Assembly: GCF_003385215.1 (NCBI RefSeq)
Contig: NZ_PQHW01000022.1
Span: forward strand, 1 to 64,000
DNA length: 64,000 nucleotides
Reading direction: 5' to 3'
Source: Amycolatopsis thermalba
GTDB lineage: Bacteria > Actinomycetota > Actinomycetes > Mycobacteriales > Pseudonocardiaceae
Under the pieces are notes generated by a model, which saw nothing but the letters and a program-made list of their open reading frames with translations, was not told the origin of the DNA and made no database searches. Every line of letters starts with the position of its first letter. The stretch's first letter is position 1. Position numbers and translations under genes: made by a program. Below, piece by piece: positions 7,711 through 64,000 of the stretch.

Positions 7711-8073
7711 ATGACCGGCATCAACATCGGCGGCGGCAACTTCGGCCCGATCAACACCGGGACGAACAGCGGATCGATGAGCGGTGCGAACATCAACCAG
7801 CAGCAGGCACCGCTCGTCGCCCTGCTCGAGCAGCTGCGTGCCCAGACCGCCGCGCTGGAGGTCGAAGACCGGAAGGCGCTGGATCGCAACCTCGCCGGCC
7901 TGCTGGCGGACGCACACAAGGCGCAGGACCCGGAAACCGCCGACGACGTGGAGCCCGAGGTCGTGCGGACCCGGTGGGAGAAGGTCAAGAACCTGCTGTC
8001 CCAGGCGTCCGAGGTGAGCGGGACGGTCGCGCAGATCGGCGGGCACATCTCCGGGCTCATCGGGGCTTTCTGA
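7711..8073 (+). CDS. Hypothetical protein with N-terminal Gly/Asn motif and coiled coil
   Basis: A 120-residue product starting at the ATG at 7711, with AAGGGAG nine bases upstream and four bases after the previous stop. Residues 1-25 are MTGINIGGGNFGPINTGTNS and its continuation SMSGAN, the same motif that ends the upstream protein. Residues 30-95 are predicted helical (LLEQLRAQTAALEVEDRKAL region), and the end is a short Gly/Ile segment. Short N-terminal tags of the form NIGG...PINTG are reminiscent of tags on some bacterial conflict-system proteins, but I cannot name the family. Soluble. Confidence 0.75.
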   Translation: MTGINIGGGNFGPINTGTNSGSMSGANINQQQAPLVALLEQLRAQTAALEVEDRKALDRNLAGLLADAHKAQDPETADDVEPEVVRTRWEKVKNLLSQASEVSGTVAQIGGHISGLIGAF

Positions 8074-8265
8074 GCCGTCGCCGGGCGCTGGGGTGCGCCG
8101 CATCCGCCTCGCGTGGGCGATGCCGCAGATGACGGCTTGCGGCGCCGGGTGGTGCATGGGCGCGCAGAGCCGCCATCGAGTGGCGTGCGACCTGTGTACT
8201 GGGTCTGGACGGGGACCGGGCGAGCCCGCCTCGTCGCGGATCCGGCCGTCAGAGGCGTCCGCGCC

Positions 8266-8440
8266 GAGAACGGCAAGAGCCTTGTCACGTCAACCTGCGT
8301 CAGCTCACCCGGCCGCTCCCCGCGGCGGATCGGCGTCCCGGTGAGGCGTTCCGGCCGGGCATCCCATGGCGCACCAGGGCTTGACGCACAGTCGAGGCGG
8401 GCATGTCCGGGCTCCCCGCGATGTGCGCTTGGCCCGGCGG
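8266..8440 (-). pseudogene. IS481-like transposase remnant
   Basis: In one minus-strand frame the sequence reads AHIAGSPDMPASTVRQALVR, resembling the helix-turn-helix of IS481-family transposases. Downstream in another frame it reads TGTPIRRGERPGELTQVDVT, matching the start of the DDE domain (family pattern: IRRYE..RPGELVHVDVKK). A frameshift separates them and the catalytic core is lost. The surrounding 8074-9112 has no intact gene. Confidence 0.55.
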
Positions 8441-8570
8441 ACGGTCTCCAGGTAGCCGCAGAAGCTCCAGCTCCGTCGGGTGTGGCCGGCGGGTGGGCCG
8501 TAGGGGGCATGGACGTCGGTGCTGGCGCGGTCGGCGGATGGTCGTAGGGGGCATCGACGGCGGTGGAGAC

Positions 8571-8991
8571 GGGGTGTCGCGGGCGAGCGGCCACAGGTGA
8601 GTGCGAGACGAGGGCGAGACCGGCCACAAGCGGGTGTGGGAGGAGAGCGAGGCCGGGCTCGCGAATAGCTTCAGCCTGCCGAGCGGCTTGCCGATGGGGT
8701 GGACGGGCGGCCTCGGGGCATGGACATCGGTGCGGTTGGCAGGGCGGGGGGGCTCGTGCGGGTCTCGCCATGACGTCCGGCTGACTGGGAACGGGCGGCG
8801 GTTGCTGGGCGAGCTTGCCGAGGCGGGGCGGCCAGTGGTCGAGATGGGGTGTCGCGGGCGAGCGGCCACAGGTGAGTGCGAGACGAGGGCGAGACCGGCC
8901 ACAAGCGGGTGTGGGAGGAGGGCCAAGGCCGGCCACAGGTGAGTGTGGAGGAGGGCGAGTGCGGGCTCGCGGATTGCTGCAGTTCGCCGCA
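8571..8991. repeat. Duplicated intergenic repeat block with about 33-bp tandem units
   Basis: A 75-bp segment at 8571-8645 recurs without mismatch at 8846-8920 (offset 275 bp). Each copy contains units of about 33 bp beginning ggccacaRgYgRgtg: two units in the first block and three in the second (the third begins near 8928). Each block is followed by a related flank beginning cgggctcgcg. The stretch 8074-9112 is otherwise empty apart from the transposase remnant. I see no coding frame with conserved protein sequence. Confidence 0.75.
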
Positions 8992-9112
8992 GGGCTTGCC
9001 AGTGGGGTTGGTGGGGACCGGTGGCCGGAGCGTGCTCTGGACGCGGCGGGTCATCGGGGGCGTTTTGAGCCATGATGTGGGGCACGAGCTCGACGACGAG
9101 GAGGTCTGCCCC

Positions 9113-10990
9113 ATGGGCCGTCACGCGGAGGAACACCAGCGCAGCCTGACCGATCCGGAGGGGTTCTGGCTGGCCGCCGCCAAGGCGATCGACTGGACGC
9201 GCGAACCGTCCCAAGCGCTGGACTCGTCGAACGCCCCGCTGTTCCGCTGGTTTCCGGACGGGGAGCTGAACACCGCCTACAACGCCCTGGACCGGCACGT
9301 GGAGCGCGGCCGCGGCGAGCAGCCGGCGTTGATCTGGGACTCGCCGGTGACCGGCGGCAAGCGCACCTTCACCTACACCCAGCTGCGCGACGAGGTCGCC
9401 CGGTTCGCCGGGGCGCTGCGCTCGCTCGGGGTCGGCAAGGGCGACCGGGTGATCGTCTACCTGCCGATGGTGCCCGAAGCGGCCGTGGCGATGCTGGCGT
9501 GCGCGCGGATCGGCGCCGTGCACTCGGTGGTGTTCGGCGGGTTCGCGCCCAAGGAGCTGGCCGCGCGCATCGAGGACGCCAAGCCCAAAGTGATCGTCGC
9601 GGCGTCCTGCGGCATCGAACCGAACCGGGTGGTCGAGTACAAGCCGATCATCGACGAGGCGCTCGCCACGACCGAACACCAGCCGGACCGGATCGTGGTG
9701 CTGCAGCGCGACGCGGCCCAGGCGACGCTCGGCGAACGGGACGTCGACTGGCAGCAGCTGGTCGCCGACGCGAGCCCCGCGGACCCGGTGCCGGTGGCGG
9801 CGACCGATCCGCTCTACATCCTCTACACCTCTGGCACGACCGGGAAGCCGAAGGGCGTCGTGCGTGACGCCGGCGGGCACGCCGTCGCACTGGCGTACTC
9901 GATGAACGCGGTCTACGACATCCAGCCGGGCGACATCTGGTGGACCGCCTCCGACGTCGGCTGGGTGGTCGGCCACTCCTACATCGTGTACGCGCCACTG
10001 CTGATCGGCGCGACGACCGTGATGTACGAGGGCAAGCCGGTCGGCACCCCGGACGCCGGCGCGTTCTGGCGCGTCATCAGCGAGCACAAGGCGAAGGCCC
10101 TGTTCACCGCGCCGACCGCGCTGCGGGCGATCAAGCGGGTGGACCCGGACGCGACGGAGCTGGCGAAGTACGACCTGTCCGCGTTCCGCACCCTGTTCAT
10201 GGCCGGGGAGCGGCTCGACCCGGAAACCCTGAACTGGGCCTCGGACAAGCTGGGCGTGCCGGTGATCGACCACTGGTGGCAGACCGAGACCGGCTGGCCG
10301 ATCGCGGCCAACCCGCGCGGCCTGGAGCCGATGCCGGTGAAGCCGGGCTCGGCGACCGTGCCGGTGCCGGGCTACGACGTGCGGATCCTCGATCAGGCCG
10401 GCAATCCGCTGCCTGCCGGGCAGGAGGGGGCGATCTGCATCAAGCTGCCGATGCCCCCGGGCACGCTGCCGACGCTGTGGGACGATGACGAGCGCTACGT
10501 GGAGGCGTACCTGTCGCGTTACGAGGGCTACTACCTCACCGGCGACTCGGGCTACTTCGACGAGGACGGGTACCTGTTCGTCATGGGCCGCACCGACGAC
10601 GTCATCAACGTGGCCGGGCACCGGTTGTCGACCGGCTCGATGGAAGCCGTGCTGGCGGCGCACCCCGCGGTGGCCGAGTGCGCGGTGATCGGCGTGCACG
10701 ATTCGCTCAAGGGCCAGCTGCCGCGCGGGCTGGTGGTGCTCAAGTCCGGTGTGGACATCGACGAGGAGACGTTGAAGGCGGAGCTGATCGCCGCCGTCCG
10801 GCGCGACATCGGCCCGGTGGCGGCGTTCCGTCAGGTGTCTATTGTGGACGCGTTGCCGAAGACGCGATCGGGCAAGATCCTGCGCAAGACCATGCGCGGA
10901 CTCGCGGAAGGCCGTGACGAGCCGGTGCCCTCGACGATCGAGGACCCCTCGGTGCTCGACAGCCTGCGCGCGATCCTGCGCGAGAGCTGA
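9113..10990 (+). CDS. prpE: Propionyl-CoA synthetase (acyl-CoA synthetase, PrpE type)
   Basis: An ATP-dependent short-chain acyl-CoA synthetase that activates propionate (and probably acetate) through an acyl-AMP. The ATG at 9113 has GAGGAGG eight bases upstream; product 625 residues, normal for PrpE. The AMP-binding motif YTSGTTGKPKG is present, the region ASCGIEPNRVVEYKP is a PrpE rather than Acs signature, and the C-terminal catalytic lysine lies in PKTRSGKILRK, which is also the usual acetylation site that silences these enzymes. Monocistronic here, with no other propionate genes nearby. Specificity for propionate over acetate is inferred from motifs. Confidence 0.88.
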   Translation: MGRHAEEHQRSLTDPEGFWLAAAKAIDWTREPSQALDSSNAPLFRWFPDGELNTAYNALDRHVERGRGEQPALIWDSPVTGGKRTFTYTQLRDEVARFAGALRSLGVGKGDRVIVYLPMVPEAAVAMLACARIGAVHSVVFGGFAPKELAARIEDAKPKVIVAASCGIEPNRVVEYKPIIDEALATTEHQPDRIVVLQRDAAQATLGERDVDWQQLVADASPADPVPVAATDPLYILYTSGTTGKPKGVVRDAGGHAVALAYSMNAVYDIQPGDIWWTASDVGWVVGHSYIVYAPLLIGATTVMYEGKPVGTPDAGAFWRVISEHKAKALFTAPTALRAIKRVDPDATELAKYDLSAFRTLFMAGERLDPETLNWASDKLGVPVIDHWWQTETGWPIAANPRGLEPMPVKPGSATVPVPGYDVRILDQAGNPLPAGQEGAICIKLPMPPGTLPTLWDDDERYVEAYLSRYEGYYLTGDSGYFDEDGYLFVMGRTDDVINVAGHRLSTGSMEAVLAAHPAVAECAVIGVHDSLKGQLPRGLVVLKSGVDIDEETLKAELIAAVRRDIGPVAAFRQVSIVDALPKTRSGKILRKTMRGLAEGRDEPVPSTIEDPSVLDSLRAILRES

Positions 10991-50199: not shown

Positions 50200-50272
50200 G
50201 CCCTCGTAGCTCAGGGGATAGAGCACCGCTCTCCTAAAGCGGGTGTCGCAGGTTCGAATCCTGCCGGGGGCA
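50200..50272 (+). tRNA. tRNA-Arg(CCT), probable AICE attachment site
   Basis: 73-nt cloverleaf: acceptor GCCCTCG/CGGGGGC, D stem GCTC/GAGC, anticodon stem CCGCT/AGCGG with loop CTCCTAA (anticodon CCT), T arm GCAGG-TTCGAAT-CCTGC. The gene is intact, as expected if the element carries a copy of the 3' end. Confidence 0.95.
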
Positions 50273-50310
50273 CAAAGCCCCTGGTAGAGCCATTCACCAG
50301 GGGCTTTGTG
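50271..50310. terminator. Bidirectional terminator between tRNA-Arg and integrase
   Basis: CACAAAGCCCCTGGT (50271-50285) pairs with ACCAGGGGCTTTGTG (50296-50310) with a 10-base loop. A-rich and T-rich arms suit termination of both the tRNA and the convergent integrase gene. It begins within the last two bases of the tRNA. Confidence 0.85.
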
Positions 50311-50326: not shown

Positions 50327-51487
50327 TTAACCCTCGCTTTTGGGCTTCTCGACAGCGGGGCGAGCCGCCAGTGCGGGGCCAGCGCTCTCCCCCACGACTC
50401 CGCGCTCCATGTAGTCCTCCTGGGTCGTGCTGATCCGCTCATGGCCGAGGTAGTCGGCGATCTCCCTCGCGGTCAGGCCCGCTGAGTCGAGCACGCCCGC
50501 CACGTAGTGCCGGAAGTCGTGCGGGTGCAGCCCCTTGAACGGCGTCCCCGCCACTACGGCACGGATCCGAGATCGGGTGTTGTCCGGGTCCCGCAGTGTG
50601 CCGGTCGCCGAGGGAAACACCCACGGCGAATCCGACTCCGCGTAGCGCCGCTTGAGGATGTCGAGGACCCAAGTAGGCGGCCGGACGGTCCGCATGCCTG
50701 CCCGGCTCTTGGTGTGGTCCTGGACGAACAACCCCTTGCCGGTCACGCGGATGACCGTGCCGTGGAAGCGAACGGTGCCGGCCTCGAAGTCGATCGACGT
50801 CCTCCAGTCGAGCGCCAGCAGCTCGCCTATCCGGCAGCCGAGACCGGACAGGACGTCGACGATGTCCACGAGGTCCCATCGCGCGGCTTCCTCGGATGTG
50901 TGGAAGACGCCGAGAACGCGGCTGATGGTCTTGTCGTTGACCAAGCGTTCCTTCTTGCGGTTCTTCTTGCCCAGGCTCTCGATCTCCCGCACGGGGTTCT
51001 TGTCCAGGGCATCGTGCCGAACCACGAGCGCGAAGATCCCCGACAGGACGACCTTGGTGTGGGATGCCGCTCCCCTGCCGTGCCGGTCGCGGACCGTCGT
51101 GATGACCCGGTTGACGGTCGAGACACGCACGTCCCCGACCCGCAGCTCGCCGATGGCATCCCGGAGGTAGCGGTTCCACGTGTCGCGATACTCGCGCTTC
51201 GTCCGAGCCGCCTTGTCCGACTCGTCGACGTCCCGGAGCCACATCTCCGCGGCAACGTGCACCTTCGTCTCGGGCTTGATCTCGCCGTCCGAGGAACGCC
51301 GTGCCCGGTCCCGAAGTGCCTCCAGCAGGTTGTTCGCCGCCTTGGCCTTGGTCTTGCCGACTCGTTCGACTGGGCGCGTCACGCCGTCGAAGTCCTTGTA
51401 GTTGGCGATGGCCCGCCAGGTGCGGTCGCCGATCTTGTAGGTCCGGATCTTGCCCCAGGTGCCGAGCGGCAGCGGTGGCCTGCCCAT
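50327..51487 (-). CDS. int: Tyrosine-recombinase integrase
   Basis: 386 residues from ATG 51487, which overlaps the xis stop by one base. Arg in GLGCRIGELLALDW, HDFRH box and Tyr in TTQEDYME form the catalytic set; an N-terminal SAM-like domain (EMWLRDVDESDKAARTKREY) binds arm sites. It integrates and, with Xis, excises the element at tRNA-Arg. Confidence 0.95.
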   Translation of the reverse strand: MGRPPLPLGTWGKIRTYKIGDRTWRAIANYKDFDGVTRPVERVGKTKAKAANNLLEALRDRARRSSDGEIKPETKVHVAAEMWLRDVDESDKAARTKREYRDTWNRYLRDAIGELRVGDVRVSTVNRVITTVRDRHGRGAASHTKVVLSGIFALVVRHDALDKNPVREIESLGKKNRKKERLVNDKTISRVLGVFHTSEEAARWDLVDIVDVLSGLGCRIGELLALDWRTSIDFEAGTVRFHGTVIRVTGKGLFVQDHTKSRAGMRTVRPPTWVLDILKRRYAESDSPWVFPSATGTLRDPDNTRSRIRAVVAGTPFKGLHPHDFRHYVAGVLDSAGLTAREIADYLGHERISTTQEDYMERGVVGESAGPALAARPAVEKPKSEG

Positions 51488-51663
51488 CAGGCTGCCCCCT
51501 GCTGATCGATCCAGGCGTCCACGTCCTCCTGGCGGTAGCGGACGTACTTGCCCATGCGGATGCCGTCCGGGCCGTAGCCCTTGCTGCGCCACTGGTAGAG
51601 GGTGCCTTTGGGGATGCCGAGGTAGTCGGCCAAGTCCTCGATGGACAGGAGTTTGCGGGTCAT
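51487..51663 (-). CDS. xis: Excisionase-like helix-turn-helix protein
   Basis: 58 residues beginning MTRKLLSIEDLADYLGIPKG and then TLYQWRSKGYGPDGIRMG, the MerR-like winged HTH used by AICE and phage excisionases. Overlaps repSA (four bases) upstream and int (one base) downstream, as in pSAM2. Directs excision over integration. Confidence 0.9.
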   Translation of the reverse strand: MTRKLLSIEDLADYLGIPKGTLYQWRSKGYGPDGIRMGKYVRYRQEDVDAWIDQQGAA

Positions 51664-53006
51664 GGCTGGTCCTCCTTTTTGGTCGCACGGTTGTTGCGTT
51701 TGCGCTGGTAGATGGCTTCGGCGAGTTCGCGTTCGGCGTCGTCGGCGTGGCCGTTGCCGGTGTAGTTCCAGTGGTTGACCACGACCACGGAGCCGGGCTC
51801 GACGCCGAGGGCTTCCAGCGCCGCGTGGTGCTGGAAGGTGCGGCGGTCGCCGCGGAGCTGGGTGAAGGTCAGCGAGTAGCGCTGGCTTTTTGTGAGGAAG
51901 TGGCCGCGGAAGCCGAGCATGTGTGCCCAGCGACGCAGGAACGCCAAGTCGTCGTTGCCGCCGAGCTGCCAGGCCGCGCGGACCATGCTTTTGTGGTGCG
52001 GGTGCACGTCGAGGTGGTCAATGTGCCGTTCCGAGTGCACCCGCTGGTCGGGGGTCTCGCTGGTGGAGGTGCCCTTGGTGGCGTATTTGGCGATGTAGCC
52101 GGCCAGCGCCTGATCGCTGAGGTTGCCGTGCCCGTCCTCGACCTCGCCGGGCCGGTGGATCACCCGGACGTCGAGTTGCTGGCCCCAGGTGAAGGTGTGC
52201 TCTTCGGTTCGGCCGTCGAGGTCGAGGGTCTTGCTGACCTGCGCGGTCTGCGCGGCAGCGCGGACGGCGTGGTCGAGCAGGTCGGTGTCGGCCCAGTCCG
52301 GGGCCGGGTCGTGCGGTCCCTCGGGGCCGTCGAGGCGGATGACGGCGTGGAAGTGGACGAGCCCGCGACGCTGGTATTCGGCGACCTTGGCGTAGGAGAG
52401 GCGGGCGTGGCGGGGGAAGTCCTTGACCCGGATGCCGGCGGCAGTGGCGAGTTCGCGGCGCAGCCGGATGGTGAAGCGGTGCCACAGTTCCCCGGCGTGG
52501 CCCTGCCAGAGGACCGCGCCGCGGTAGTCGTAGGCGTCCGGGTCGATCGCGGTGCCCAGGCGCGGGTCGTCGGGGTGGTGGAAGGTGCCGCACGAGCACG
52601 GCCGCGGCTTGCCGTGCCGGGTTGTCGGTCGGGTGTGCACCACGCCGAAGCTCGGGGCGGTCAGGGTGACGAACAGGCGCGGCTTGTCGGCCACGTCGGC
52701 GGGAATGGTCTTGCCTCCGGCGACTCCAGCGCGGATGAGCTGGAAGGCGTCTCCGGCGTAGCGGTCGGAGCAGGCCGGGCAGACCGAGGCGCGGCGGTTG
52801 CCGCAGGGGGCGTAGATCGTCCCGGCATGCCGATCGAGCACGGTGCCGGTGAGGCGGTCGATGAGCTTGCGGTAGCCGGAGAGGTGGACGGGTTTGAGGC
52901 ATCCGCCGGTGGCCTCGACCCGTGCTCGCCAGCGCCGGTAGCCGGGGGCGGTGAGCCGCTGCTGGATGCGGGCGGCGAGGTCGAAGTTGAGGGATGCGAG
53001 GGGCAT
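51660..53006 (-). CDS. repSA: RepSA-like replication initiator
   Basis: 448 residues. A zinc-like Cys cluster (CGNRRASVCPACSDRYAG) precedes a HUH-type core: VHFHAVIRLDG has the His-x-His motif, and GYIAKYATKGT supplies the Tyr region. RepSA of pSAM2 starts rolling-circle replication of the excised element. Terminator-like hairpins lie just upstream. Confidence 0.9.
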   Translation of the reverse strand: MPLASLNFDLAARIQQRLTAPGYRRWRARVEATGGCLKPVHLSGYRKLIDRLTGTVLDRHAGTIYAPCGNRRASVCPACSDRYAGDAFQLIRAGVAGGKTIPADVADKPRLFVTLTAPSFGVVHTRPTTRHGKPRPCSCGTFHHPDDPRLGTAIDPDAYDYRGAVLWQGHAGELWHRFTIRLRRELATAAGIRVKDFPRHARLSYAKVAEYQRRGLVHFHAVIRLDGPEGPHDPAPDWADTDLLDHAVRAAAQTAQVSKTLDLDGRTEEHTFTWGQQLDVRVIHRPGEVEDGHGNLSDQALAGYIAKYATKGTSTSETPDQRVHSERHIDHLDVHPHHKSMVRAAWQLGGNDDLAFLRRWAHMLGFRGHFLTKSQRYSLTFTQLRGDRRTFQHHAALEALGVEPGSVVVVNHWNYTGNGHADDAERELAEAIYQRKRNNRATKKEDQP

Positions 53007-54258: not shown

Positions 54259-54497
54259 CACGGCCTCCGGTCCGGTCGGCCGGTGAGCCATTCGTTGACT
54301 TCGTGCCGGTAGCCGGTGCCGTGTGCCCGCCACTCCCGGTACAGCCCGACCGTGATCACGGCCCAGGTCACGAGCGTGATAGCGGCGGCGAGGGCGAAGC
54401 CCCAGAAGCTGTGGATCACCGCCCGCTCGATGAGCAGGGCGAGGAAGGCGAGGCCGGTCATTTTGGTCCAGGACCACACGAACCGCAGGGTCAGCAT
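54258..54497 (-). CDS. Small membrane protein of the transfer module
   Basis: 79 residues, two hydrophobic helices (FLALLIERAVIHSF and GFALAAAITLVTWAVITVGL), Trp-rich start. Overlaps both neighbours by one base. Not recognised; probably an accessory to conjugative spread. Confidence 0.72.
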   Translation of the reverse strand: MLTLRFVWSWTKMTGLAFLALLIERAVIHSFWGFALAAAITLVTWAVITVGLYREWRAHGTGYRHEVNEWLTGRPDRRP

Positions 54498-55861
54498 CAG
54501 GCCACCACCCGCAGCTCAGCACCGCGCCATCCGGCCCGCACGAACTCCACCAGCTCCTCCAGCTCGCGGTCGTCGACGTAGGCAGCGCGCACGCGTATGG
54601 GGACGCGGGAGCGCTGCCGGATGACGTAGCCGATCCCCGACGTTTCCGGGGCGTTCGGGATCTCATCGGCCAGCGCACCGCGAAGGCGGGCGTTCTCGCC
54701 GAGCACCATGTCCACGTGTGCCGCGGACGTGACCCGCAGGCACACTCGGGTGGTGAACAGGTCCCGCACCGGCACGGTGTCCTTAGTGGGTTCCTGCACC
54801 AGTCCGACCATCGAGTGCCCGGTTGCACGGCCCTGAGAGCCGACAAGGGCGAGTTGCCGTTTCAGGCCGCGGGCGGCGGAGGCGTCGCCATAGGCGAGCA
54901 GTGCGCCCATCTCGTCGAGGATCAGCAGGTTCAGCGGCGTGACCGAGGAGGGTGCGATCTTGCGCTTGCCCTGGTCAGCCAGGCTGCGTTGAGTGGCCTG
55001 CATGTCGGCCACGTACTCCTCGACCAGCTCCGCGCAGTCGCCCTCCTCGCAGGCGTAGCGGTACGCGATGCCGGCGAGCTTCGCGAACTCCATCTGCTTG
55101 GGATCGCAGATCCACAGCCTGACCGCGCCGTCCCGGATCAGCGGTGCCAGCCCGCGGAGTAGGGCGTTGACCACCGAGTTCTTGCCCGCGCCGGTCGCGC
55201 CCGCCACGAACAGGTGCTGCCCCAGCGCGGACAACCGCCAGTCGCCGCCGTACTCGGTCTCGCCGACGTAGAGGTTGGTCAGCTCGATCGCGTCGGAGTC
55301 GTAGACCATCTCCGGGGCCTCGATGACCTCGGTGAACGGCTCCGACCGCTCCACCACCAGCGCGATCACCCGGGGCTTGACCCGCTCGATCGCGATCCGC
55401 TCGACCTTGAGCGCCTCGGTCAACTCGGGAAGCTTGGCCTCGAACTGCCGGAGATGCTGCCCGGGGTGGAGCTTGACGTAGAGGGTGTCCACGCTCGGGG
55501 AGTAGGAGCGAATGCGAACCAGCCGGGGCACGTGAAGTTCACCGGTCTTGCGGTTGGTGGTGAACAGGTCGCAGGCGATCAGGGCGTTGCGCCAGCGCGG
55601 CCCCAGATAAGTGATCCACCGGCGACGCCACGCCCGCATCCGTGGTGCGGCGAACCGGTCGAAGCTGTCCGGATGCGCGCGATACCACGCACACAGACCC
55701 GCCGCGGTGCCGCCGAGGATGCCGCCAGTGGCGGTCCAGCCCAGTTCGAGCCCGGCAGTGGTGACGGCAGCGGGGGTAAGGACGCTGCCGGGGTGCCGGC
55801 CGAGCCAGGCGGCGGCCTTGACCTCTGCGCCCTTGGTGCGCTTGGAGAATTCCGAAGCCAT
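54497..55861 (-). CDS. FtsK/SpoIIIE-like conjugative DNA translocase (TraSA-like)
   Basis: 454 residues from ATG 55861, with AAGGAA five bases upstream. Walker A is GATGAGKNSVVNALL (the residue after Lys is Asn, not Ser/Thr; other Tra proteins carry Gly) and Walker B LLILDEMGALLAYG. Two N-terminal helices near 40-70. In AICEs this single protein moves double-stranded DNA between cells as a hexamer. Confidence 0.9.
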   Translation of the reverse strand: MASEFSKRTKGAEVKAAAWLGRHPGSVLTPAAVTTAGLELGWTATGGILGGTAAGLCAWYRAHPDSFDRFAAPRMRAWRRRWITYLGPRWRNALIACDLFTTNRKTGELHVPRLVRIRSYSPSVDTLYVKLHPGQHLRQFEAKLPELTEALKVERIAIERVKPRVIALVVERSEPFTEVIEAPEMVYDSDAIELTNLYVGETEYGGDWRLSALGQHLFVAGATGAGKNSVVNALLRGLAPLIRDGAVRLWICDPKQMEFAKLAGIAYRYACEEGDCAELVEEYVADMQATQRSLADQGKRKIAPSSVTPLNLLILDEMGALLAYGDASAARGLKRQLALVGSQGRATGHSMVGLVQEPTKDTVPVRDLFTTRVCLRVTSAAHVDMVLGENARLRGALADEIPNAPETSGIGYVIRQRSRVPIRVRAAYVDDRELEELVEFVRAGWRGAELRVVA

Positions 55862-55945
55862 GATGTTCCTTCCGAGAAACGAAAGGACCGGCCCGGCCAC
55901 CCGTGTCGAGGTGGTCAGGCCGGTCCTGCGGCGGTTGCTGTTCGG

Positions 55946-59720: not shown

Positions 59721-60623
59721 TCAGAACGGCCGCCAGTGAGCGGTCGCCTCGCCGGTGCGGATGGTGCGCATGCGCGTTTCGAACTCCGCCTTGATCTCGG
59801 GCGAGTGGTCGACGTTCTGCATGATCCACGTCGTCATCTTGATCTCGTGGGTTGCTCGCAGCGTTGGGAAGCCTTCCCAGTTCCGGATGTCGTAGCCGTA
59901 GGAACGGGCGAAGTCGTTGTACTGCTTGTCCGTCCACCACCCGGCGGTGACGTACTCGGTCGCGGTCATCGAGAGATCCCACTCCGGCTGCCCCCAGGAG
60001 AAGTTCTCGAAGTCGATGAGCAGCGGCCCGGAATCGGTGATCATCAGGTTCTTGATGTGAGCGTCGCCGTGGATAGCGCACTCGTCCAGCGGGAAGTTCA
60101 GCCGCGCAACTTCGTTCTCCAGCTCCTCACACCGCTCCAGCAGCAACTGTTTGTCGTCGTCCGAGACGGGCGAGGACGCAACTCGTGGCCGGATCCGAGC
60201 GAGAATGTCTGTGCGGGGCAGCGTGAACGTAGTGGGAGACGGCAGCCGGTGAAGCTCCCGAAGCTCGCGGCCAAGAAGCGCGACGTCGTCCGGCATCGCG
60301 ACCTCGCCGGGGATGAACTCCCAGAACGTGACCGGGTGGCCCCCTGCCGCGCGCGGTTGATCGGCCGGCCTCGACAGGCGACCTGAGGCGAACCCCTGGT
60401 CGGCGAGCCAGCGTGCTACCGCGACCTCCTTTTCAACGTTCGGCCAGTAGTCCATCGTCCGCGCGATCCGCACCACGATGGGGGCTGAGGCGAGCTTGTA
60501 GAGGGCGTTCTCGCCCAATCGCATCAGCGTTGCGCCCTTCGGGTCCAGGCCCGCGTCACGACAAGCGGTGTCGAGCACGGCGCGAGTGGAGTCGGCGGTG
60601 AACGCTGGCGCGGTGTCCGTCAT
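59721..60623 (-). CDS. APH-family phosphotransferase
   Basis: 300 residues from ATG 60623 (GGGAGG upstream). Catalytic loop IHGDAHIKNLM and metal-site LIDFENFSWGQPEWDLS are intact, and the N-lobe Lys region is weak (VVRIARTM). The family includes aminoglycoside and macrolide kinases but also metabolic kinases; resistance cannot be claimed from the sequence. Convergent with the TPR regulator, eight bases apart. Confidence 0.82.
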   Translation of the reverse strand: MTDTAPAFTADSTRAVLDTACRDAGLDPKGATLMRLGENALYKLASAPIVVRIARTMDYWPNVEKEVAVARWLADQGFASGRLSRPADQPRAAGGHPVTFWEFIPGEVAMPDDVALLGRELRELHRLPSPTTFTLPRTDILARIRPRVASSPVSDDDKQLLLERCEELENEVARLNFPLDECAIHGDAHIKNLMITDSGPLLIDFENFSWGQPEWDLSMTATEYVTAGWWTDKQYNDFARSYGYDIRNWEGFPTLRATHEIKMTTWIMQNVDHSPEIKAEFETRMRTIRTGEATAHWRPF

Positions 60624-60654
60624 CAAGCCTCCCGTCGTGTGATCCGGGTCCAGG

Positions 60655-60954
60655 TTACGGGCGGAAAGCGAGAAGAGGTGACCGAGCCGCAGATGGTTCG
60701 GAAGATCGCCCGATCCCAGCCACGTAGGTCCCCTTGCACGGCACCGTGATCACCAGGCCCTTGGAACGGAGCAGCTCGGTAGCGTGGCGAGCTGTGCCCA
60801 ACGAGACGCCGTACTCCTGTGCGAGCCGGCGTTCCGCAGGCAGTCGCGTGTCCGGCGGTAGGTCCCCGCGCTTGATGCGTTGGGCGAGGTGGTCGGCCAT
60901 CTTCTCGTAGAGCATGCCCGGCTTGTCTGGCTCCAGTTCCTCATAGAAGGTCAT
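60655..60954 (-). CDS. GntR-family small regulator
   Basis: 99 residues from ATG 60954. Winged HTH RLPAERRLAQEYGVSLGTAR and HATELLRSKGLVITVPCKGT, no ligand domain. Divergent from a second gntR at 61103 over GGTACC repeats, and ahead of the phosphotransferase gene on the same strand. Confidence 0.85.
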   Translation of the reverse strand: MTFYEELEPDKPGMLYEKMADHLAQRIKRGDLPPDTRLPAERRLAQEYGVSLGTARHATELLRSKGLVITVPCKGTYVAGIGRSSEPSAARSPLLAFRP

Positions 60955-61030
60955 AGGTCCCCCGTGGATCTCGTCTTCGTCAGTCCGCGACCGAGAACGA
61001 CTGGCCGCGACTGGAACGAGAGTAGCGCGC

Positions 61031-61060
61031 CCTAGGTACCTATAGGAACTCACAGGTACC
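61031..61060. promoter_or_regulatory. Repeated GGTACC operator between two gntR genes
   Basis: CCTAGGTACCTATAGG (61031-61046) is a near palindrome, and a second GGTACC lies at 61055-61060. Both are in the 148-bp divergent gap and probably bind one or both GntR proteins. Confidence 0.6.
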
Positions 61061-61445: not shown

Positions 61446-61859
61446 TCACGGCCGCGAATCGGCGTACCAGCGTTGCCAGAACGTGGGCATGTCGGTAAAG
61501 GTCTCTTCTGCCTCCTGCGCGATCCAGGACCACCGAACAACCTCCAGGTTTTCGAGGTCGGTGTGCACGCAGAAGCACGTGCTCGCGCCGTCATCACCGA
61601 AGCCGATCAAAGTTCGCGGCAGCATCTCCATCTGCCAGGCTCTCAGGTTGTCGGAAACGATTACCTTGCACGACCACGCGGGCCGCCACTGGCCCCTCAA
61701 GTCCTCAAACCCGTTCGCGAAGGCCAGAAACTCTCGCAGGTGCGGCGGCAGCCCTATGCCCAAGGCGCGCTCAGTCCTCGCAAGCTCAGAGGCCGACGCA
61801 CCCTCGCTCAGCCGCAATCCCCACTGGTCAACCTGCAAGATCGCGGCCCAAGCAGTCAC
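61446..61859 (-). CDS. SUKH/SMI1-KNR4-type protein
   Basis: 137 residues from GTG 61859 (AGGAG further upstream; GTG 61910 would add 17 residues). Features ELARTERALGIGLPPHLREF and LAFANGFEDL are the SMI1/KNR4 (SUKH) N-terminal motif, and the end has Trp-rich strands. SUKH proteins are often immunity proteins against toxins. No toxin gene is adjacent, so it may be an orphan immunity gene carried by the element. Confidence 0.75.
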   Translation of the reverse strand: MTAWAAILQVDQWGLRLSEGASASELARTERALGIGLPPHLREFLAFANGFEDLRGQWRPAWSCKVIVSDNLRAWQMEMLPRTLIGFGDDGASTCFCVHTDLENLEVVRWSWIAQEAEETFTDMPTFWQRWYADSRP

Positions 61860-61938
61860 CCGCAGATCATCTCCTGAACCTCGCTGCGGCCGCCAGGGGC
61901 TTGAGCTCACGTGTTCAAAGTTTCCTTACTTGTTCAAG

Positions 61939-62030: not shown

Positions 62031-62146
62031 CGGAGGCCGGGCGGCCCCACAGCCGCCGCGAGAGGAAGAACAAAGATGCCCTCGCCGGGCAGGCAGGCTC
62101 CGGGATGACCAGGACCGCAGGCCGGGTTGCGCTGGCAGGGTGGGTG

Positions 62147-62295
62147 CTTGGTGGTCATCCCGTCGCCTGATCTGATGGCTATCACGCCGTGCTGGGGCCG
62201 CAAGTTTGGCAAGTTCGGCCGGCGGTTGAGCACGGACGTTGCGGCCCCAGCACGGCGTGATCGAGACGCCATCAGGCGACGGGATGACCACCAAG
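62147..62295. repeat. 149-bp inverted repeat next to low-GC gene
   Basis: Arms 62147-62201 and 62241-62295 (55 bp each) pair with 25 perfect base pairs outside, an 11-bp mismatch, and 19 perfect base pairs inside; the loop is 39 bp. No coding sequence lies within. It could be a MITE-like element, a folded RNA, or a junction left by insertion of the neighbouring gene. Confidence 0.8.
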
Positions 62296-62308
62296 CGGCT
62301 CAGTTCAC

Positions 62309-64000
62309 CTAATTCTCTCCCGCATCCTCTGCAAGCGATTCCAAAATCTTACGAAGGTCACTCGTCTTTTCCTCTTGGTCAAGATATTCGCGATATGAAT
62401 CGTAGGCATTGGTTAGGAGCTCGTCGTATTTGACAATCCTGGTGTTGATAGCCTTCAACGTTTCAGCCGACTTTTCGCGGCCGCCTACCTTGGACCAATC
62501 TGAGGGGTCTTTTCCGAGTACGCATACACATTCAACCCGCTCGTCCTTGCCGGAATTTCGAAGAAACGCCGATAGGGCTTCCCGGTATTTGTCAACCTGT
62601 TCATACAACCGGAGCGTGCTCGTGGACGCTGAATGGCGCTTCAGTTCGACAATGACGTGCGCGCCTGCCATGCGTTTATAACGGATATCAATTCGTGATG
62701 CACGCTCTTCGGGGGTGAGATCAGCGCTTATTTCCGAGAAGGCTCTCCCAACTCGCTCTTCCATTGTGTGGTCCGTTGCTCGTTCCCACGATGGGTCCAG
62801 TAACCACAGGTTGCTGAACAGATGCTCCTGGAGGACTTTTTCGAGCGAGTCGTTGTCAACATGTTGTTGCAGCTTCTCAATCACCTTGAGTCGTTGAGTG
62901 ACTATCCGATGATAAAGCACCGCTTCCAGGTCCTCAATGTTTCCGAATAGTATACTTATTGACTGAAGATCCGAGGTTTCCAATTGGTCGAGGGCGTCCA
63001 AATTTTCCCGGTATCGCATGACCTCGAAAGCGAGGACCGAATGAGCAAAAAGTTGGGCTCGTTGTTGAGGGTTGTCTACCGTCAGTTGGTTGATCTTTCC
63101 AAAGAGGCGAACTGCCTTCTTTTTGGTGTCGCCCCTAAGGGTGTTGAACCACGCCTTGATGTGCAAATTCTCGAGAGCCGCGGATGTCCCTTTTTGATTC
63201 CTCAAATCGGTCCAAGCGCTACCGATCGCGCGAACCTGAGTGGTGAACCATTGAATTAGGGACTGGTATCTCGGGTCGTCCTCCACGATACGCTGGCGGC
63301 TGCTGGTAGCTATATCCTCAGCGTCATCTGAATCAAGAAAATCGGCGTGGATCTCGCCGAACAGGTACGAGCCAAAGATGCTTGACTCCTTGATTTCTTC
63401 AAGTAGGTTCTCATGGGCAAGTTTGCCGCGGACCATCAACGTCACGCGGTTGATCTGCTCCCCGTCGTCGTCCTTTAGATCTTTAGGGCTGAAGGAGGTG
63501 GCTATCCACCCTCGAACTTCCCCCTCTGGCAATGTCGCCGGCTCGGAGAATTTTTTGTTCTCGGCGCGCTTGCACTGTTCGCCGATCTTTTCGGCTTCGG
63601 AAAACTCGTCATAAACCCAGAGAAACTGCGCCTTGTGGAAGTAGTCTCGGTCCACCGCTGTCACCTCGCGTCCACCAATCAGCACGCGAAAGTTGTACTC
63701 AGACCCGAGAATGGAAAATCGACGAGCAATTCTCTTTGTCAATCCTGAGGCAACATTCTGCAATTCCTTCTTGAGGTCCGTCAAGACGATCTTGGTGCCT
63801 CGGTGCAAGTCGCCTGGAAACTGATCGATTAGGGATTCTGGGTGATACTGACCCGAGTTGGTGTTGCTTATTTGACGCTGAATCTCATCGAGTTGCATAC
63901 GAAAAGCTGACCGCTGACCATCCTTGATGGTATAAACCTCTACTACCCTCGCTATTGAGAAAAGTGAAAGCTTGCCAATCCCTTTTCGGCCCATAACTTT
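62309..64000 (-). CDS. Partial Hsp90-like (GHKL) ATPase fused to PD-(D/E)XK nuclease
   Basis: Over 560 residues, continuing beyond the right edge, where the start is missing. The visible start KVMGRKGIGKLSLFSIA is the ATP-lid motif of GHKL ATPases (Hsp90/MORC/MutL group). A middle region of about 300 residues is unrecognised. Near the end RIDIRYKRMAGAHVIVELKR gives Asp then Glu-x-Lys, a PD-(D/E)XK pattern. GC is about 50 percent by eye, against about 70 nearby, with AT-rich codons, so it is recently acquired. ATPase-nuclease fusions of this kind are typical of anti-phage defence, but the exact system is not identified. Confidence 0.75.
   Translation of the reverse strand, partial: KVMGRKGIGKLSLFSIARVVEVYTIKDGQRSAFRMQLDEIQRQISNTNSGQYHPESLIDQFPGDLHRGTKIVLTDLKKELQNVASGLTKRIARRFSILGSEYNFRVLIGGREVTAVDRDYFHKAQFLWVYDEFSEAEKIGEQCKRAENKKFSEPATLPEGEVRGWIATSFSPKDLKDDDGEQINRVTLMVRGKLAHENLLEEIKESSIFGSYLFGEIHADFLDSDDAEDIATSSRQRIVEDDPRYQSLIQWFTTQVRAIGSAWTDLRNQKGTSAALENLHIKAWFNTLRGDTKKKAVRLFGKINQLTVDNPQQRAQLFAHSVLAFEVMRYRENLDALDQLETSDLQSISILFGNIEDLEAVLYHRIVTQRLKVIEKLQQHVDNDSLEKVLQEHLFSNLWLLDPSWERATDHTMEERVGRAFSEISADLTPEERASRIDIRYKRMAGAHVIVELKRHSASTSTLRLYEQVDKYREALSAFLRNSGKDERVECVCVLGKDPSDWSKVGGREKSAETLKAINTRIVKYDELLTNAYDSYREYLDQEEKTSDLRKILESLAEDAGEN

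Follow-up and report, generated by a model that had tools for sequence, protein, structure and literature searches.

To the right of a strongly palindromic repeat, a stretch of Amycolatopsis thermalba DNA of 64,000 nucleotides (the window) ends within an open frame of unusually low GC content. Does this frame encode a new kind of defence protein, or a known enzyme in an unfamiliar setting? A sequence-only reading of the window had described it as a GHKL ATPase fused to a nuclease, with a likely role in defence. The parent contig has 71,423 bases, of which the window covers the first 64 kb, and the remainder was used to complete the gene.

Gene structure and family identity

The open frame fills positions 62309-64000 on the minus strand and, as had been read, is cut at the right edge. 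On the parent contig the gene extends over 62309-64279 (minus strand) and encodes 656 amino acids without internal stops; the start MGRKGIGK given in the list of open reading frames is internal to the gene and not its true start. The GC content of the gene is 51.7%, against 70.3% for window positions 1-62300, which agrees with the earlier remark that this DNA is less GC-rich than its surroundings. The two motifs noticed at the outset, GRKGIGK (residues 97-103) and D-ExK (D531, E545 and K547), do occur in one protein, and both are beyond chance. Pfam matches the protein with HATPase_c_3 (75.8 bits, cut-off 25; E = 4.3e-21) and HATPase_c, the NCBIfam model NF050001, "BbrUII/HgiDII family restriction enzyme", matches at 823.8 bits (cut-off 550; E = 1.1e-247), and the motifs are nearly invariant among 68 aligned proteins. 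NF050001 is an equivalog model, and residues 5-649 of the protein align with its full length (positions 1-659 of 659). The proposed search of defence databases also gave an answer, with two PADLOC REase_II models matching the protein.

The claim that no named family has exactly this layout therefore fails, and an unnamed novel family is rejected: the layout is that of paraMORC3, of NF050001 and of PADLOC REase_II. The accessible text of the 2008 description of paraMORC3 by Iyer, Abhiman and Aravind gives it a GHKL ATPase, an S5 domain and a C-terminal E-D-ExK nuclease, and lists cytosine methylases and Vsr as neighbours of these families (PMC2292703). The edge protein likewise carries a GHKL ATPase and a C-terminal E-D-ExK nuclease, together with a putative S5-like second domain that is seen as a strand-rich stretch of the structural model, and no difference in layout was found. 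A gene of Escherichia phage PhiR44_1, with 36.6% identity, is annotated ParaMORC3 and adjoins a Dcm gene. A relative on a viral contig (L126) is 41% identical to the window protein, and in the E. coli genomes that it matches the gene is named BbrUII/HgiDII family in 5/7 and ATP-binding protein in 2/7. By its sequence, the edge gene is thus a known type of restriction enzyme carrying its own ATPase and a further member of an already named family; the unusual point is the type of methyltransferase beside it. It resembles the BbrUII/HgiDII family in its full-length match, its GHKL and PD-(D/E)xK layout and its C5-methyltransferase neighbour, but differs in that this methyltransferase lies outside the family's usual clade.

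The name-giving BbrUII/HgiDII enzymes cleave GTCGAC. M.HgiDII is reported, in the accessible part of one source, as a 5mC enzyme for the same site (PMC5867850). The contig holds 60 GTCGAC sites where 76.6 are expected, which places this site 23rd among 64 palindromes; the count is uninformative on avoidance, as is that of GCCGGC.

Table 1. Features of the locus, with positions numbered from the first base of the window
Feature	Position	Strand	Basis or remark
Left attachment site: tRNA-Arg(cct) 3' end plus 8 bp	50235-50281	+	47 bp repeated at 66968-67014
Integrase of element (PF00589), beside tRNA	50327-51688	-	Pfam
RepSA-type replication initiator (PF20199, 502 bits)	51660-53006	-	Pfam
FtsK/SpoIIIE-family protein of element (PF01580)	54497-55900	-	Pfam
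BbrUII/HgiDII-family (paraMORC3) restriction enzyme	62309-64000, on to 64279	-	Residues 94-656 of 656 within window
C-terminal PD-(D/E)xK nuclease domain, residues about 496-620	62420-62794	-	Modelled helix-strand-strand-helix-strand
Catalytic motif D531 ... E545-x-K547	62639-62689	-	Alignment and model
GHKL G2 box GRKGIGK, residues 97-103	63971-63991	-	Alignment
C5 cytosine methyltransferase	64343-65440, outside window, upstream of enzyme	-	PF00145, 199 bits
Vsr endonuclease	65527-65979, outside window, divergent	+	TIGR00632, 112 bits, cut-off 97.85

ATPase and nuclease domains

The aligned set comprises the protein itself and 67 of 120 loci, hand-picked for spread, with one locus (L139) left out for a stop. 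All 12 GHKL positions checked (E31, N35, D38, D59, G61, G63, G97, K99, G100, G102, K103 and T162) are identical in 68/68 proteins. At the nuclease residues, E507, D531 and E545 are kept in 67/68, and K547 and Q561 in 66/68. Two proteins depart from this pattern: one from a viral contig (L155) and one from Haloferax prahovense (L097), in which the alignment shows none of the five retained. The Haloferax gene (8001-9953 of its locus) retains intact GHKL motifs and has methyltransferases on both sides, making it a candidate nuclease-dead ATPase.

An AlphaFold2 model of the enzyme (mean pLDDT 84, pTM 0.68) begins with an alpha/beta domain compatible with GHKL. The next domain, at about residues 197-311, is rich in strands, mostly of high confidence and placed where S5 would lie; the middle is helical, with lower confidence at about 431-510. 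The C-terminus forms a helix-strand-strand-helix-strand core, with D531 in strand 529-537, E545 and K547 in the consecutive strand 540-547 and Q561 in helix 555-575. Modelling of both ends, which the sequence-only reading had proposed as a check, thus places the catalytic residues within a nuclease core, and the fusion of a GHKL ATPase to a PD-(D/E)xK nuclease is upheld.

Shedu as the nearest nuclease is likewise supported. Among Pfam families SduA_C is the commonest match to the members of a 27-sequence nuclease profile (19/27 at E <= 1, best E 3.4e-5), and hhalign aligns this profile with 13 Shedu C-termini from the bacterial family of the host at 91.7% probability (E 7.7e-7), compared with 0.5% for a control against methyltransferases. 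The alignment pairs D531, E545-x-K547 and Q561 with the conserved D, E-x-K and Q of Shedu. Solved structures searched with the nuclease profile gave 0 matches at E <= 10. The protein itself scores 21.1 bits against SduA_C/DUF4263, under the Pfam cut-off of 27; it is predicted to be Shedu-like in its working but is not filed as Shedu type I-D.

The closest described parallel is VcSduA, a GHKL-Shedu protein of Vibrio cholerae assigned to Shedu type I-D. In the accessible part of the 2025 report it is anti-phage, its layout is called paraMORC3-like, and its activity is abolished by E27A in the ATPase or K557A in the nuclease (PMC12137116). By this published description, and not by sequence, VcSduA and the edge protein have in common a GHKL N-terminus, a Shedu-like nuclease C-terminus and carriage on an island. 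As reported there, VcSduA is an independent single-gene system, whereas the edge gene adjoins a methyltransferase and a Vsr gene.

Integrative element and neighbouring genes

A 47-bp perfect direct repeat (50235-50281 and 66968-67014) bounds 16,733 bp. The segment has an integrase by a tRNA attachment site, RepSA, an FtsK-like gene and the flanking repeat, which together identify an element of the pSAM2 type (AICE; Table 1). The earlier reading had placed the edge gene next to AICE cargo; the element is real, but the 47-bp repeats enclose the gene, so that it lies inside rather than beside it. The enzyme, the methyltransferase and Vsr are all element cargo, close to its right end. No empty attachment site was found in relatives: one congener (L216) has the right flank but lacks the tRNA there. 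The insertion is therefore judged by the direct repeat and the gene content.

Further cargo comprises an APH-type phosphotransferase (59721-60626), a GntR regulator (60655-61053) and a SUKH-1 (SMI1/KNR4) family protein (61446-61910). SUKH-1 proteins are often immunity proteins.

The large inverted repeat reported beside the gene (62146-62296) is real (z = -12.7), but its proposed link to the gene is not: it belongs to one copy (62072-62296) of a repeat that is about 225 bp long, strongly palindromic and scattered through the genome. With a 171-bp query, the genome yielded 56 match rows over both strands, the long ones mostly 70-77% identical, and 4/4 copies examined have about 225 bp in common. 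With many copies genome-wide, the repeat is rejected as a mark of the edge gene. The good conservation of its 25-bp ends (96%) suggests that it is mobile or structured; the best matches in an Rfam search were far under gathering scores.

NF050001 matches over its cut-off occur in 2 of 61 genomes, in 3 of 396 from the phylum and in 3 of 297 from the family, the host genome being counted each time, and in 0/18 other genomes of the genus. This rarity in the family and absence from the genus fit horizontal transfer.

Beyond the right edge, where partner genes had been suggested as a point to check, lie a C5-methyltransferase, co-directional with the enzyme and 63 bases from it, and a divergent Vsr gene. 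Their GC contents (57.2% and 66.4%) are unequal to each other and to that of the enzyme, so the three genes may not share one arrival. A decayed or silent passenger, a non-functional cassette simply carried by the element, would agree with recent acquisition, which the low GC content and the absence from the genus fit, and the Haloferax protein, as aligned, indicates that decay occurs in the family. All three frames are nevertheless open at full length and all catalytic residues checked are present, and we consider such a passenger very improbable.

The methyltransferase beside the enzyme is, by sequence comparison, not the family's usual partner. Its best PADLOC model is DruM, whereas DrmMII was best in 3/3 usual partners scanned. 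It shows 29-34% identity to 27 of its best 30 matches, the rest being itself and the partners at L042 (46%) and L161 (38%). At 250 bits, 91/103 partner methyltransferases fall in one cluster, and that of the window clusters with L042's alone. The canonical methyltransferase of an Actinomadura meyerae locus (L044), used as a query against the host genome, gave a sole match, partial and at 42%, to the linked gene itself. The genome has two further partial C5-type matches, one of them part of a long ORF (L168) that presumably resembles element-borne methylases.

Methyltransferases of the window type (E <= 1e-60) occur in 58/294 family genomes. In the seven of these 58 that were examined (L208-L214), Vsr is adjacent in 7/7 and this enzyme in 0/7. 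Cassettes on the actinobacterial plasmids NZ_CP025550 and NZ_CP110617 show the gene order found here, with a divergent Vsr, a methyltransferase that shares 49-50% identity with the one beside the edge gene, and a co-directional restriction enzyme; they differ in that the restriction-enzyme slot is annotated NgoMIV-family, against paraMORC3 in the window. At L208-L214 the pair of DruM-type methyltransferase and Vsr stands beside differing genes and is perhaps a portable marking-and-repair module.

Partner genes among relatives

Across the wider family, a C5-methyltransferase lies within 4 kb at 64/79 genome loci and 40/41 viral-contig loci, and Vsr at 15/79 and 16/41, respectively; the host locus and four further loci have each of them in 3/5. 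The search profiles behind these counts were built up from the methyltransferase and Vsr next to the edge gene itself. The enzyme family is largely one of restriction-modification. A housekeeping locus is unsupported, given the methyltransferase linkage and the matches in phages, plasmids and viral contigs, and the likely defence role proposed at the outset gains support.

A quick tree of the enzyme places the window within an eight-member actinobacterial clade with a different pattern. The canonical methyltransferase is adjacent in 1/8 clade members (the Actinomadura locus) versus 58/66 other genome loci (Fisher p 2.6e-5, with counts that ignore relatedness). Among the 66, from which seven Cenarchaeum loci of one genome are kept apart, 4 of the 8 non-canonical loci lie less than 1 kb from a contig end, which applies to no locus of the clade. 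That uncultured Cenarchaeum genome carries seven enzyme paralogues (L068, L070, L073, L077, L082, L095 and L098) and one clearly canonical methyltransferase (52%), which is separated from L068 by about 5 kb.

The canonical methyltransferase was not found in the six searchable clade genomes besides that of Actinomadura, L043's genome being left out. As a positive control, the Actinomadura query matched its source gene at 100% in the genome it came from; it gave zero matches in G614, G714, G715 and G716; in the host genome and G020 its matches are partial and weak (E 4e-21 and 1.5e-16), to the linked DruM-type genes. Of four clade genomes compared in this respect, DruM-type methyltransferases occur in the host genome, G020 and G715 (unlinked, 43%) and not in G614, from which, set against 58/294 in the family, nothing firm follows.

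This pattern bears on whether the enzyme needs a methyltransferase at all. It could be a methylation-independent, Shedu-like defence ATPase that acts alone, as VcSduA supposedly does, and senses phage DNA structure through a GHKL gate, the methyltransferase-Vsr pair being an unrelated module landed alongside. The scarcity of the canonical partner in the clade, both adjacent and genome-wide, favours such an enzyme, as does the lack of any C5-methyltransferase match within 4 kb at 4/8 clade loci (L039, L043, L045 and L047), where L039 has a weak match (132 bits) starting 4.0 kb off, and L043 and L047 have one-side contig of 2.3 and 2.0 kb. The similarity of the C-terminus to SduA_C points the same way, and stand-alone paraMORC3 genes are also recorded in the accessible text of Iyer et al. 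(PMC2292703). Yet the enzyme and methyltransferase lie on one strand with the short spacing given above, a methyltransferase stands beside the gene in most relatives, and the name of the equivalog model is that of a restriction enzyme. A PF00145 search further found a C5-methyltransferase in 8/8 genomes (two outside the clade), a weak point because 42/100 family genomes hold one anyway. On balance, we regard an enzyme that acts alone as unlikely.

Proposed function and implications

We consider it probable that the edge gene supplies the restriction enzyme in a cassette of three genes for restriction, modification and repair, borne on the integrative element, and that its nuclease is ATP-regulated. 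The C5-methyltransferase just upstream would place 5-methylcytosine marks on host target sites. On ATP binding, the enzyme would probably dimerise via its N-terminal GHKL ATPase, its S5-like and middle domains would embrace DNA, and its C-terminal Shedu-like PD-(D/E)xK nuclease would cut incoming DNA that lacks the marks. Deamination of 5-methylcytosine would yield T:G mismatches, which Vsr would repair.

Support for this scheme is strongest for the domains and intact sites, followed by the gene order of the cassette, one common target and, last, ATP-controlled cleavage. Domain content, intact catalytic residues, gene order and element location are evident from the sequence, and nuclease topology from the model. 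A common target of enzyme and methyltransferase may be expected but is weakened by the partner mismatch; common specificity is unsupported because the methyltransferase belongs to another clade and its type, at the seven other loci examined, pairs with Vsr and not with this enzyme. ATP control of cleavage is suggested by analogy with GHKL proteins and with the VcSduA mutants, as described in the accessible part of that report (PMC12137116). No published report of ATP dependence was found for this enzyme, and the reason for an ATPase in a type II-like enzyme was found settled nowhere in our literature search, which covered several papers in part. The cassette may protect against phages or plasmids.

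A more tentative proposal, possible though we would not rely on it, is that the actinobacterial enzyme lineage detached from its usual methyltransferase clade, and that its window member now fills the place of the restriction enzyme in a DruM/NgoMIV-type cassette linked to Vsr. In that case, either the target of the enzyme became the one recognised by another methyltransferase, or the enzyme lacks the fixed-sequence reading of classical type II enzymes and is licensed through its ATPase gate. The latter would link restriction-modification to Shedu-type sensing within one protein family. Most members of the enzyme family stand beside the usual methyltransferase, which is largely missing next to those of one clade; the family thereby offers a natural test, and comparing both groups would show whether the GHKL-Shedu-like fusion reads sequence, methylation or DNA structure.
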